From positions 26,324 to 63,196 of the forward strand of contig JAABPV010000005.1 in NCBI GenBank assembly GCA_011391865.1: 36,873 nt of DNA. Reading direction: 5' to 3'. The DNA is from Desulfobulbaceae bacterium. Its GTDB lineage: Bacteria > Desulfobacterota > Desulfobulbia > Desulfobulbales > Desulfobulbaceae. The translations under genes and the position numbers were made by a program. Positions within the stretch are counted from its first letter, which is position 1; every line of letters begins with the position of its first letter. Shown in pieces: positions 29,725-32,980 of the stretch. The notes under the pieces were generated by a model. It made no database searches and was not told the origin of the DNA. It saw nothing but the letters and a program-made list of their open reading frames with translations.

Positions 29725-30051
29725 TTATGCCCGTTCGCCATACATTTCGGTGATCAGCTGGCGGAGCTGCAAGGCATCAGCTGCCGACAACTGGTCAATC
29801 TTCTGCTTGAGGCGGCTTTTGCTGATCGTCCGTATCTGATCAACAGCGATCTCTGCCGCTCGGCCAGCGCACTGAATTTGCAGGCGGGTGCGCCATGCCG
29901 GATGCAGCTTTGAGGTCAGCGGGCAGACCACCACCGTTTCCAGATGCTTGTTCATACCGTCTTGGCTGACGATCACCACCGGACGAATCTTGCAAATCTC
30001 GCTGCCAATGGTCGGGTTGAGGTCTGCGCAGTAAATCTCGTACCGTCTCAT
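29725..30051 (-). CDS. MazF/PemK-type toxin endoribonuclease
   Basis: 108 residues. Recognised by RRYEIYCADLNPTIGSEICK with RPVVIVSQDGMNK, VVVCPLTSKLHP and the closing AVDQIRTISKSRLKQKID, all core MazF/PemK positions, including the RPVVIVS substrate strand and the TS motif. MazF-type toxins cut single-stranded RNA at short sequences. The start follows the antitoxin stop by 2 nt, the normal antitoxin-then-toxin order. The 3' end runs to 10 nt before the recB start (it would overlap an alternative recB ATG). Confidence 0.92.
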   Translation of the reverse strand: MRRYEIYCADLNPTIGSEICKIRPVVIVSQDGMNKHLETVVVCPLTSKLHPAWRTRLQIQCAGRAAEIAVDQIRTISKSRLKQKIDQLSAADALQLRQLITEMYGERA

Positions 30052-30053
30052 GT

Positions 30054-30320
30054 TCAGCCGTTCTCTTCAAGCCCGTCTGCGGAGAGCGCGTCAAAGTCGC
30101 TCCAATCTTCCTGCTCCTTGGCCATCTCTTTATAAGTGTTCTCCCAAGACAGCTTGTTCTCCTCCTGCTTCCTTCGCAGCAGGAGGCCAGCGGCAGTTTC
30201 TTCCAAGATGAGCGAGTCCGTGAAGCCGTACCGCTGCAAGATGGATTTCGGCAGGCGGATGCCTTGGGAATTGCCGATGGGCACAATGCTGATCTGTCGG
30301 GGTTTGGTTCGCTTTTCCAT
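30054..30320 (-). CDS. MazE/AbrB-type antitoxin
   Basis: 88 residues from ATG 30320 (MEKRTKPRQISIVPIGNSQG), with a GTG 9 nt upstream as an alternative. The N-terminal swapped-hairpin DNA-binding domain has IGNSQGIRLPKSILQRYGF, VSSKM-like strand pairs (SLILEETAAGLLLRRKQ) and an acidic C-terminal tail (EQEDWSDFDALSADGLEE) that would mask the toxin. It forms the first gene of the pair and probably autoregulates the operon. A 504-nt spacer without genes precedes it, most of it a repeat array. Confidence 0.88.
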   Translation of the reverse strand: MEKRTKPRQISIVPIGNSQGIRLPKSILQRYGFTDSLILEETAAGLLLRRKQEENKLSWENTYKEMAKEQEDWSDFDALSADGLEENG

Positions 30321-30833
30321 GAGGGTCACATCCGATTAGCCACTTGATCTAAAAGCTGCCAGATATTTTTCCGCAGAGCGGATGCTGTGATTGCCATCTG
30401 TGCATTCTCCGAAGTTATGCGCATCCGTCACGAATGCGAATCAGGTGTGAACGAGCTGCCGCTTTCATGGTGCCGCCGCATCGTAGAGAGGAGCGCGTTT
30501 TCTGTCAACAGGAAAGAAGCGGCAACCTGTTCCGGTTTGGCAGCAATCGTTTGCTGCTCGGCAACAAAAGGTTGTTGTCTAACAACGGAAGGTTTTTGCC
30601 GAGCAACAACCTTCTCTTGCTCGGCAGCAGAAGGTTGTCAGTCGGCTGCAAAGGTCTGCGGCTTGACAAGAGAAGGTTTCTGCCAAGCAACAACCTTTTG
30701 TTGTTTGGCAGAAGAAGGTTGTTAGTTGGCTGCAAACGTCTGCTGTTTCGCAGAAGAAGGTTTTTGCCAAGCAACAGCCTTCTTCTGCCGGGCGGCAAAG
30801 AAGCTGCGCGGGGCAAAAAACAAAAAGGCCAAA
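30321..30833. other. Gene-free spacer with a repeat array
   Basis: Between the caspase stop (30834) and the antitoxin start. 30519-30811 is array D. The rest (30321-30518) shows no coding signal; no good promoter for the antitoxin was identified. Frames of up to 138 codons across the array are products of its 21-nt period. Confidence 0.7.
30519..30811. repeat. Palindromic repeat array D (exact 21-nt period)
   Basis: Thirteen full 21-nt units in strict register from 30519 to 30791, plus a degenerate 14th. Clear palindromes are GCAGCAATCGTTTGCTGC (30540), CAACAAAAGGTTGTTG (30562) and GCAACAACCTTTTGTTG (30687). Units at 30624-30707 and 30708-30791 align as two copies of an 84-nt, four-unit higher-order repeat, and 30540-30623 is a more diverged third. 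Because 21 is a multiple of 3, all six frames give heptad-repeat peptides, so no protein is called. Confidence 0.85.
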
Positions 30834-32321
30834 TCACTGTCCGCCGCGCACCAGACGTACCGCGTAGGTGCTGCTGCGGTTGCAGATGCGGGAATGGCCA
30901 TAGAGGAAACTGACGTACCACGCGCCGTCAGCATACGGCGACCCGGACCAATACACCGTGGCCTTTGTATTCGCAAAAGCCTGCTGGTTGATCGTCGGTC
31001 GTTCTGACCAATCGTTGCATCTGCCGCTATTTTTGTCTTTCATCCCCTTGCTGCACTGCACCAAGGTTTTCAGCTCATCAATGGTTGACAGTCGCCAGTC
31101 AGAGTAGCCTGCGTATTCAGCATTCTTGAAACGCTTCACCGCATCATCCCATGTATATGTTTCCGTCTTGCCCTCTTTGCAGTTCACGCCGGACAAACCT
31201 TCTGAACAGCGTTTCCACATCAATTTGCTTACGGTGTCGGTGATTGTGCCATTGCCATGATCAATATATTGCCCGATAGTTTTACTTTCCGGCTGATCGG
31301 CGTTACCAGACTCTAATTTTTTTATTACCTCTTCTACTACCTCTTTTGGTATCGCCACTTCCTCTACTACTACCTTTTCTGGTATCTTTCCTTTTTCTAC
31401 TACCGTTTTCCCTTCCATTGTTATCGGTTGCAAATTTTTGTCACCGTCGCTGCGTTGCAGAAAACTCAAATCCGTTCCTCGCTCTGGCTGCTTCTGCAAT
31501 TCAGTTTCGTGCAGTTCCTTTGGCACCAAGAGAAAATCCCCCATTTCATGCCCACTCTTGCGAATATCGCTGTACTGCGGAGTTTGGTCCGCATTCAATG
31601 CGACGGGCCGCTTGATCTTGTCATATAAACCATCGCCGTCCAGAATTTTCTGATTTTCACGCAGCGCATCTAAAAATGCTTTAGCAAAAACCGAATGCCC
31701 GCTCCCGCCGCCGTCGGCGACAGGCTCCTCCCCGCCCGAAGTCATGGCGGTGCGGGAACGTTTCTGATACATCCGCCGCAGCCATTCATCTTGCTCCATG
31801 CCGGAAGCGAGCTTTGCCCCGGAATCTCGCGTCAGCAGGCTACCGGAATAACAGGAGTCCGCAACGATCAAGACATGCCGGGCTTGGATAACTTTCAGCA
31901 TGTCTGTGATTCGAGAAGTCGGAACCCAATCCACATCATTGTCCCTTGCCGCATTCACCGGCTGCCAGTAATCAACACCGCTCTGCTTGTCAAGAAAGCC
32001 ATGTCCGGCGTAGTAAATAAGCAAGCTGTCATCTTCCTTGGTCATAGTTTTGCGGAGATTGGAGACGGCTGTCAAGATATGCTTATCGGTTGCATCCAGC
32101 AGTAGCTCAACCGTGAATCCATACTGTTTCTCCAGCACCTCAGCCACTGCCTTCGCATCAGCTATCGGTGTTTCCAGCGGTTTAATATTTGTGTAATTCT
32201 GATTGCCGATCACCAAAGCATGAAAACGGCCAAAGCCGGAAGCTGCCTGCGTCTGCGCCGCCGCAGCAGGCAGCACGGCCAGCGCAATCAGCAGCAGCAA
32301 ACATCTTTCGCGCCGTTTCAT
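30834..32321 (-). CDS. Secreted caspase-like protease fused to a DUF1566 domain with a DGR-like variable region
   Basis: 495 residues. Signal peptide MKRRERCLLLLIALAVLPAA, then a peptidase C14 caspase domain at about 32-270 (HALVIGNQNYTNIKPLETPI) with the catalytic dyad His107 in YYAGHG and Cys157 in VADSCYSG. A charged Val/Glu/Lys linker (about 300-337) leads to a DUF1566 C-type-lectin-like domain at about 350-495 (DHGNGTITDTVSKLMWKRCS, YAGYSDWRLSTIDELKTLV). The final 30 residues, after SGSPYADGAW, alternate fixed and apparently variable positions and end AVRLVRGGQ. A protease triggered by ligand binding to the lectin domain is plausible. Its start overlaps the upstream membrane-protein gene by 4 nt. 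Confidence 0.9.
   Translation of the reverse strand: MKRRERCLLLLIALAVLPAAAAQTQAASGFGRFHALVIGNQNYTNIKPLETPIADAKAVAEVLEKQYGFTVELLLDATDKHILTAVSNLRKTMTKEDDSLLIYYAGHGFLDKQSGVDYWQPVNAARDNDVDWVPTSRITDMLKVIQARHVLIVADSCYSGSLLTRDSGAKLASGMEQDEWLRRMYQKRSRTAMTSGGEEPVADGGGSGHSVFAKAFLDALRENQKILDGDGLYDKIKRPVALNADQTPQYSDIRKSGHEMGDFLLVPKELHETELQKQPERGTDLSFLQRSDGDKNLQPITMEGKTVVEKGKIPEKVVVEEVAIPKEVVEEVIKKLESGNADQPESKTIGQYIDHGNGTITDTVSKLMWKRCSEGLSGVNCKEGKTETYTWDDAVKRFKNAEYAGYSDWRLSTIDELKTLVQCSKGMKDKNSGRCNDWSERPTINQQAFANTKATVYWSGSPYADGAWYVSFLYGHSRICNRSSTYAVRLVRGGQ
30846..30950 (-). other. Candidate DGR variable region
   Basis: Codons for residues 458-492 of the caspase/DUF1566 protein. The core (30917-30864) has variable-type codons TAC, AGT, CTC, TAT, CAT, TCC, CGC, ATC, TGC, AAC, AGC, AGC and ACC, each ending in C or T as expected from AAC/AAT template codons, set between GTC, TTC, GGC and CGC codons and followed by TACGCGGTACGTCTGGTG. 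No template repeat or reverse transcriptase is in the window. Inference from sequence pattern. Confidence 0.65.
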
Positions 32322-32980
32322 TTTCCTTGCCTCCGCAACGAGTCAGCCGCCTGTTCGGTCTTCAATGCCTCGTCCTCATCGCCATTCACCCGCAGCAGTT
32401 CGGCCAGCAGGGTCAGATGATCGGCTTTATTTTCCGCTTTGCCGTATAAAGCAGCCAACCTTGCCAGCGAAAGAGCTTCGCCGACACGCTTTTCCTTCTG
32501 CCATACTGTGGCTATCCTGCTTAAAGGAAGAGCTGCCTCGGACAAGCTGGTTTCCGGTTTCAGTTTATCCCATTCTTGGCGTATATCCAAAGAGTCATTT
32601 TCACAGTCAGCGCCAAGGCATCCATCAATGCGCATATTTTTTTCTGTTGTGCTGCGCAGCACAACAGATGCCTGCTTTTCATTGTGCCCAGTTGTTTCAG
32701 TGACATCTTTTTGATTCAACTGCGGCTCGCCCTTCCACAGCATAATGCCAATAATCATCGTGCCAAACAGGGCGAAATAGGTTCCCGGTAGCAAGTTGGT
32801 GAAGGTCAGCTTCACGCCGCCTGCTTCCGCACTGGCGGAGCCGCTGCCGTCCGCAGCCTTGCCTTTGCTCCCGGCAGTGCTGAACAGGCGAAAGCCAAGC
32901 CAGATAGACAAGGCCCCAACCGCCAGCACAGTCAGGCGGTACAGGGCGGCGTAAATGAGAAATAAAGTGGAATTGTCCAT
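32318..32980 (-). CDS. Membrane protein of the caspase operon
   Basis: 220 residues with an AGAGGA ribosome site. Two membrane helices: about 5-32 (FLIYAALYRLTVLAVGALSI, WLGFRLF) and about 58-82 (FALFGTMIIGIMLWKGEP), joined by a low-complexity Gly/Ala/Ser loop. The C-terminal half is helical (LPLSRIATVWQKEKRVGEAL, ALYGKAENKADHLTLLAELL, EDEALKTEQAADSLRR), TPR-like in look. No known family; the stop overlaps the start of the caspase gene by 4 nt (ATGA), so the two are probably made in a fixed ratio. It may anchor or control the exported protease. Confidence 0.75.
   Translation of the reverse strand: MDNSTLFLIYAALYRLTVLAVGALSIWLGFRLFSTAGSKGKAADGSGSASAEAGGVKLTFTNLLPGTYFALFGTMIIGIMLWKGEPQLNQKDVTETTGHNEKQASVVLRSTTEKNMRIDGCLGADCENDSLDIRQEWDKLKPETSLSEAALPLSRIATVWQKEKRVGEALSLARLAALYGKAENKADHLTLLAELLRVNGDEDEALKTEQAADSLRRQGK

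Follow-up and report, generated by a model that had tools for sequence, protein, structure and literature searches.

A DGR-type variable region in a caspase-DUF1566 protein of a cable bacterium whose assembly has no recognised DGR

Results

The locus and its genomic setting

The window, meaning the whole stretch of 36,873 nucleotides analysed here (G000:C5:26324-63196), comes from a 2.8 Mb genome (G000; 87 contigs, 95.2% complete) that falls with the cable bacterium genus Candidatus Electronema. The genomes of two genera number 13 in all. Five are of the window's genus, two of them just 69% and 78% complete, and the relatives there include Candidatus Electronema sp. KV (G001) and a genome deposited as Desulfobulbus sp. 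F5 (G004). The eight of the second genus include Ca. Electrothrix gigas AU1_5 (G077), Ca. E. aarhusensis MCF (G074) and Desulfobulbaceae S24.Bin023 (G021).

The window encodes a caspase-DUF1566 protein, the features of which are listed in Table 1. The Peptidase_C14 domain scores above its curated cut-off and contains, by eye, YAGHG and DSCYSG stretches, which we take to be the putative catalytic motifs (His and Cys); its nearest solved sequences are those of MALT1 paracaspase (E 3e-6). The N-terminus is hydrophobic by eye, and the protein is probably secreted. The AlphaFold model has a mean pLDDT of 55.9, with values below 50 across residues 472-495, and was set aside on these grounds. Part of the 220-aa frame directly upstream aligns at a like position upstream of the related genes G000:C52 and G003:C29, and this frame and the caspase gene possibly form one operon.

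Two further elements lie nearby. Just downstream of the caspase gene (window 30519-30788) is an array with 21-, 42- and 84-base periods and many inverted repeats. A like array lies 3' of the C52 gene, and one exact array pattern was found in 13/275 loci, all at these two places. A PemK/MazF-like toxin gene lies next to the caspase gene (window 29725-30329), and the adjacent frame weakly matches MazE, scoring under the cut-off. On the argG side, F5 has another caspase-DUF1566 gene and no cassette aligns in G001, G002 and G003; the window variable region therefore has no clean ortholog.

Table 1 Features of the caspase-DUF1566 locus in window coordinates.
Feature	Position	Strand	Basis
Caspase-DUF1566 protein gene, 495 aa	30834..32321	-	Open frame and translation; Pfam
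Signal-peptide-like N-terminus, residues 1-27	32241..32321	-	By eye from translation
Peptidase_C14 caspase domain, residues 34-251	31569..32222	-	Pfam, 85.8 bits vs cut-off 21.4
Lcl_C/DUF1566 domain, residues 358-492	30846..31250	-	Pfam, 97.2 bits vs cut-off 34.9
Homogenised variable-region tract, WSGS to stop	30834..30950	-	Column third-base agreement, codon composition, codon-position profile
Tract 3' end (GTACGTCTGGTGCGCGGCGGACAGTGATTTGG), candidate homing (IMH-type) end	30829..30860	-	Common to variable regions of complete DGRs
220-aa frame directly upstream of caspase gene	32318..32980	-	Partial alignment to relatives; without Pfam match

The variable tail of the window gene

The initial annotation had placed a variable region (VR) of the kind written by a diversity-generating retroelement (DGR) at 30846-30950, and its coordinates, residues and minus-strand frame were confirmed. 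These 105 bases are the codons from WSGSPYADGAW to AVR. Read from 30950 down, the first half is TGG TCC GGG TCG CCG TAT GCT GAC GGC GCG TGG TAC GTC AGT TTC, and the sequence continues to 30846 as CTC TAT GGC CAT TCC CGC ATC TGC AAC CGC AGC AGC ACC TAC GCG GTA CGT. The assignment of fixed and variable residues mostly stood, with two corrections: the Ser (TCC) that had been called variable is constant (Ser in 21/21 of the tails described below), and the Tyr before AVRLVR that had been called fixed varies in the same 21 tails (D, F, L, N, S, V or Y).

In the revised set, W (30918-30920) and AVRLVR bracket the variable codons, all 13 of which end in C or T (NNY), a pattern with a probability of ~4e-4 for the window gene alone. 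Against an inferred template built on the 20 remaining tails, the window tail has 15 changes at A sites and four elsewhere, two of the latter being common to other Electronema tails; this comparison is partly circular, as the adenine sites were placed where other tails vary. The VR sits 3' in the Lcl_C/DUF1566 domain (358-492 of 495) and has the homing-type end GGCGGACAGTGA, which is also present in the VRs of loci L208, L104 and L105. We infer that the tract end GTACGTCTGGTGCGCGGCGGACAGTGATTTGG works as a homing (IMH-type) end.

A family of tails in cable bacteria

Protein searches found similar tails on a second caspase (C52; tail at G000:C52:12175-12261) and an RCC1-repeat protein (C9; tail at G000:C9:6400-6486) of the same genome, and in G001, G003, G004 and G021. 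A DNA search with the inferred template gave matches in 12/73 genomes of the family. Tails of the window type were read in nine of these (G000, G001, G003, G004, G021, G074, G075, G077 and G080), corresponding to 9/13 genomes of the two genera; in G020, G056 and G079 the matches were short and no window-type tail was visible. Among 29 matched tails, L007, L008 and L042 were set aside as unlike, leaving a working set of 26, of which 21 are of standard length and the five of non-standard length are outside the 21-tail counts. The frameshifted tail L113 and the hit L127 are not in this set. A domain scan of 10 of the 26 genes (mostly longer ones, the window's not counted) found Lcl_C in all 10, with a caspase domain in eight, RCC1 repeats in one and nothing else in one.

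The RCC1-repeat protein (L103 4861-6486; G000:C9), an unusual partner for such a tail, ends in the same DUF1566 tail. The less similar tails of the window's genome that were set aside have 12/13 (C17) and 8/13 (C33) NNY codons; the former (L007 1372-1911) is on a short DUF1566 protein with an altered framework and is perhaps a decayed VR.

Footprint of adenine-directed change

The C/T ending noted for the window gene extends to the family. NNY was found in 270/273 variable codons of the 21 tails, compared with 1633/2961 (55%) in the scaffold of the same genes. The Electrothrix tails came from BLAST with the inferred template, which may favour NNC codons; the eight standard-length tails found via protein similarity alone are without such bias and have NNY in 104/104. 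In most variable codons, each of the four bases occurs at positions 1 and 2, with C or T kept at position 3. Differences fall at codon positions 1, 2 and 3 in proportions of 42, 38 and 19% in the VR and 30, 25 and 46% in the scaffold. At the family level, variation is confined to positions that adenines of the inferred template explain, and the A-position-biased variation predicted by the initial annotation is thus present between paralogs and species.

At conserved residues, third bases agreed at 0.91 across 11 columns of the VR and at 0.69 across 36 of the scaffold (p = 0.0009; p-values are rough because all pair counts stem from related sequences). Pairs with few shared scaffold codons were left out of the codon-position and third-base distance comparisons. 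The last scaffold columns, from WSGS onward, gave agreements of 0.96, 0.96, 0.96, 0.40, 0.96 and 0.88; since these are mostly high, the tract starts near window 30950. The likeness also runs past the stop codon across tails of otherwise different genes, with TTT following in 22/26 tails and TTTTGT in 17/26. Taken at the level of sequence, these data establish that the last 39 codons of the DUF1566 domain carry the footprint of adenine-directed mutagenic retrohoming together with a DGR-type 3' end.

Comparison with complete DGRs

The end GGCGGACAGTGA also closes the VRs of G025, G035 and Ectothiorhodospira haloalkaliphila, all of which have a reverse transcriptase (RT) and a template. IGxxxSQ is a motif of DGR-type reverse transcriptases, and the control DGRs show it. 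An exact-pattern scan for the GGCGGACAGTGA end yielded 22 stretches in named genomes, and an IGxxxSQ RT was present within the examined part of four (L202, L208, L213 and L221). In four VR/template pairs of complete DGRs, 60/61 mismatches were at template adenines (16/0, 12/0, 18/0 and 14/1 at A and elsewhere, respectively), the exception sitting in the 3' end.

The DUF1566 DGRs of E. haloalkaliphila ATCC 51935 (L208), Halorhodospira abdelmalekii (L202) and the same-order genomes G025 and G035 resemble the window in having a DUF1566-type tail with the W-x-V-x-F-x-x-G frame, NNY codons and the VR end GGCGGACAGTGA. They carry an IGxxxSQ RT and a nearby template, whereas the window genome shows neither. 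Their templates were not the source of the window VR because the central fixed residues of the VR are not the same.

Search for the reverse transcriptase and the template

The check proposed in the initial annotation, a genome search for an A-rich near-copy and a DGR-type RT, found neither in this assembly. G000 has a single PF00078 RT match (L001 868-2445; G000:C75), a Drt2-type defence reverse transcriptase (2e-134) with IPQGSPISS and YSDD, and no Brt-like RT match at 1e-5. BLAST searches using either the VR or the inferred template as query, and a pattern search, found no template repeat in G000. Both components of a complete DGR, the DGR-type RT and the A-rich template repeat, were thus not found in a genome that is 95.2% complete; a small DGR could be missing from an assembly of this completeness in 87 contigs.

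The template pattern search covered 15 genomes. It recovered the true templates of both controls without mismatch and detected no comparable stretch in any of the 13 genomes of both genera; G000 gave two 3-mismatch matches, no better than chance, and the one that was read sits in an unrelated gene. Brt-like RTs were searched in 37 genomes and eight of the second genus, PF00078 was searched in 15 genomes, and motifs were read. The five genomes of the window's genus showed no recognisable DGR-type RT, and the same held for 8/9 tail-bearing genomes, two of which (G075 and G080) are single contigs. RT matches that are short or cut in G075 (two), G080 (one) and G077 (one) are incompletely typed, as are full-length matches in G001 and G079, where the search for the IGxxxSQ motif was negative.

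Among the 13 genomes, IGxxxSQ RTs occur only in G021 (two) and G076 (one). The A-rich stretches beside these RTs encode, by eye, other target types, and the two sets of DGRs were therefore rejected as donors, not being cognate by sequence. The Electrothrix-group DGR-type RTs (L090 and L094 in G021, L246 in G076 and the fragment L161 in G078) are accompanied by A-rich templates, FGE-like or otherwise, that are distinct from the window-type tails. G078 lacks such tails; there, a YMDD fragment beside an FGE-like frame may be another DGR-type RT.

Beyond these genomes, neither 50,697 phage records nor 72,556 plasmid records matched the inferred template, and the window DUF1566 stretch had no match among the latter. 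A protein-pattern scan across genome contigs gave no match. Three exact patterns gave 0 matches in IMG/VR; a looser pattern gave nine stretches, all with other 3' ends. These stretches on viral contigs (L267-L275) are template-like, with NFNNGNSN followed by R-x-VR or R-x-CR and GAGTGTCA, and in three of them Ser and Arg stand where they do in the cable-bacterium tails.

Evidence on past activity and its probable loss

One close gene pair between species, G000:C52 and G003:C29, was found. The residues from W to AVRLVRGG are identical (27/28 including the last codon), while the DUF1566 scaffolds share 87.3% DNA and 81.8% protein identity and differ at 22/121 residues. Decayed tails were also seen: G075 has a frameshifted one (L113), the end is altered in G003, and a tail of G074 has eight framework changes. 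In the G075 case (L113 1496-1591), the VR end lacks one base (GGAAGTGA instead of GGACAGTGA) and the frame runs on.

The unchanged pair and the decayed tails favour loss of the machine, although this frozen state rests on a single gene pair to which the window's own VR does not belong. The third-base difference between the genera was 0.161 in the VR and 0.350 in the scaffold, and within Electronema it was 0.128 and 0.234, respectively. The closer likeness of third bases in the VR than in the scaffold speaks against a loss of the machine that long predates the divergence of the genes. Both a loss that followed long activity and a supply in trans are compatible with these sequence data; we rank loss first.

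Discussion

The best reading of the sequence data is that the tip of the window protein was written by a DGR and is now frozen or supplied in trans. More specifically, we consider it probable that the window gene encodes a DGR-type variable protein without its DGR, the machine having been lost later and selected variants kept. Within the cable-bacterium lineage, the window gene and its sisters would have been rewritten by a DGR whose template had the form W-N-V-N-F-N-N-G-N-S-N-x-N-N-R-N-N-N-N-A-V-R-L-V-R. Electronema would then have lost the machine and retained the selected variants. The protein is predicted to reside in the periplasm, where its now fixed lectin-like tip may bind one ligand. 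Ligand binding would gate the caspase, so that sensor and effector are joined in one chain in a multicellular filament; that the DUF1566 tip gates the caspase is suggested by the architecture. The initial annotation had described a hypermutated secreted caspase sensor. The VR codon pattern, the homogenised framework, the DGR 3' end and the signal-peptide-like N-terminus (by eye) agree with that description. Current hypermutation finds no support in G000, where the sole RT is Drt2-type and no template was found, or in the unchanged VR of the close inter-species pair.

Continued diversification in trans, by a DGR outside the assemblies on an unassembled contig, plasmid or phage of cable bacteria, is rather unlikely. 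It would account for the framework being homogenised beyond the scaffold in both genera and for the state of the window tail, with 13/13 NNY codons and, among its four off-adenine changes, two shared with other Electronema tails. Remote DGR targets have also been described in two studies (PMC7517822, PMC10907252). Weighing against it are the lack of a recognised template or DGR-type RT in 8/9 tail-bearing genomes, G075 and G080 among them as single contigs, the phage, plasmid and exact-pattern IMG/VR searches without a match, and the VR that stayed the same in the one close gene pair.

Spread of a C-terminal cassette by recombination or gene conversion without a DGR, with selection on the binding face making the differences, is very improbable. 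Tails do sit on different N-termini (caspase, RCC1 repeats), G001, G002 and G003 lack the caspase cassette where their argG flanks align, and some tails have residues in common beyond the template pattern. Recent copying, however, predicts that all codon positions be alike, whereas positions 1 and 2 vary and position 3 stays C or T, and the same pattern accompanies an RT and a template in G025, G035 and Ectothiorhodospira. An ordinary DUF1566 fold in which W-x-V-x-F-x-x-G and AVRLVR are structural and the codon pattern reflects chance or codon usage is hardly credible: DUF1566 tails with the motif and without the codon pattern exist (e.g. G000:C33, 8/13 NNY), but the 104/104 NNY of the eight protein-search tails, the reversed codon-position profile and the conserved bases past the stop codon stand against it.

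Publications already cover DUF1566, caspase-linked and remote DGR targets. In line with the initial annotation, DUF1566 is a common DGR target domain (PMC4159848). Caspase-type variable proteins have been described in cyanobacteria (PMC7517822). According to published descriptions, orthocaspase-linked DGR targets share with the window gene a caspase-like domain, a C-terminal diversified domain and dispersed targets. Their genomes have DGR components while none were found in the window genome, and the window gene differs from them in its target domain, DUF1566, and its cable bacterium host.

In multicellular bacteria, effector-linked DGR targets have been proposed as antigen sensors in a study on Thiohalocapsa PB-PSB1 (PMC10907252). 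That organism resembles the window's host in being multicellular and in having such effector-linked targets, some of them, as here, away from a complete DGR. According to that study, PB-PSB1 differs from the window genome in having seven RTs and a VR diversity that was measured; it uses NACHT or ternary conflict systems, whereas the window encodes a single-chain caspase-DUF1566 protein (PMC10907252). Full-text searches of an open-licence library returned no paper pairing cable bacteria with DGRs or Electronema with caspases, and a term search of three cable-bacterium genome papers returned no mention of reverse transcriptases or caspases.

With loss of the machine as the preferred reading, the finding, if true, describes a caspase-linked receptor family across a multicellular bacterial lineage that was written by a hypermutation machine absent from most genomes checked. 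It makes a question testable: were the products kept as a frozen repertoire after the machine was lost, or is the machine supplied in trans? More tentatively, and on balance doubtfully, cable bacteria may have dispersed secreted caspase sensors with tips that an extrachromosomal DGR on a phage or other mobile element writes in trans, useful variants being kept in a germline-like manner. If such writing in trans is true, a multicellular filament would borrow receptor diversity and then fix the useful variants.
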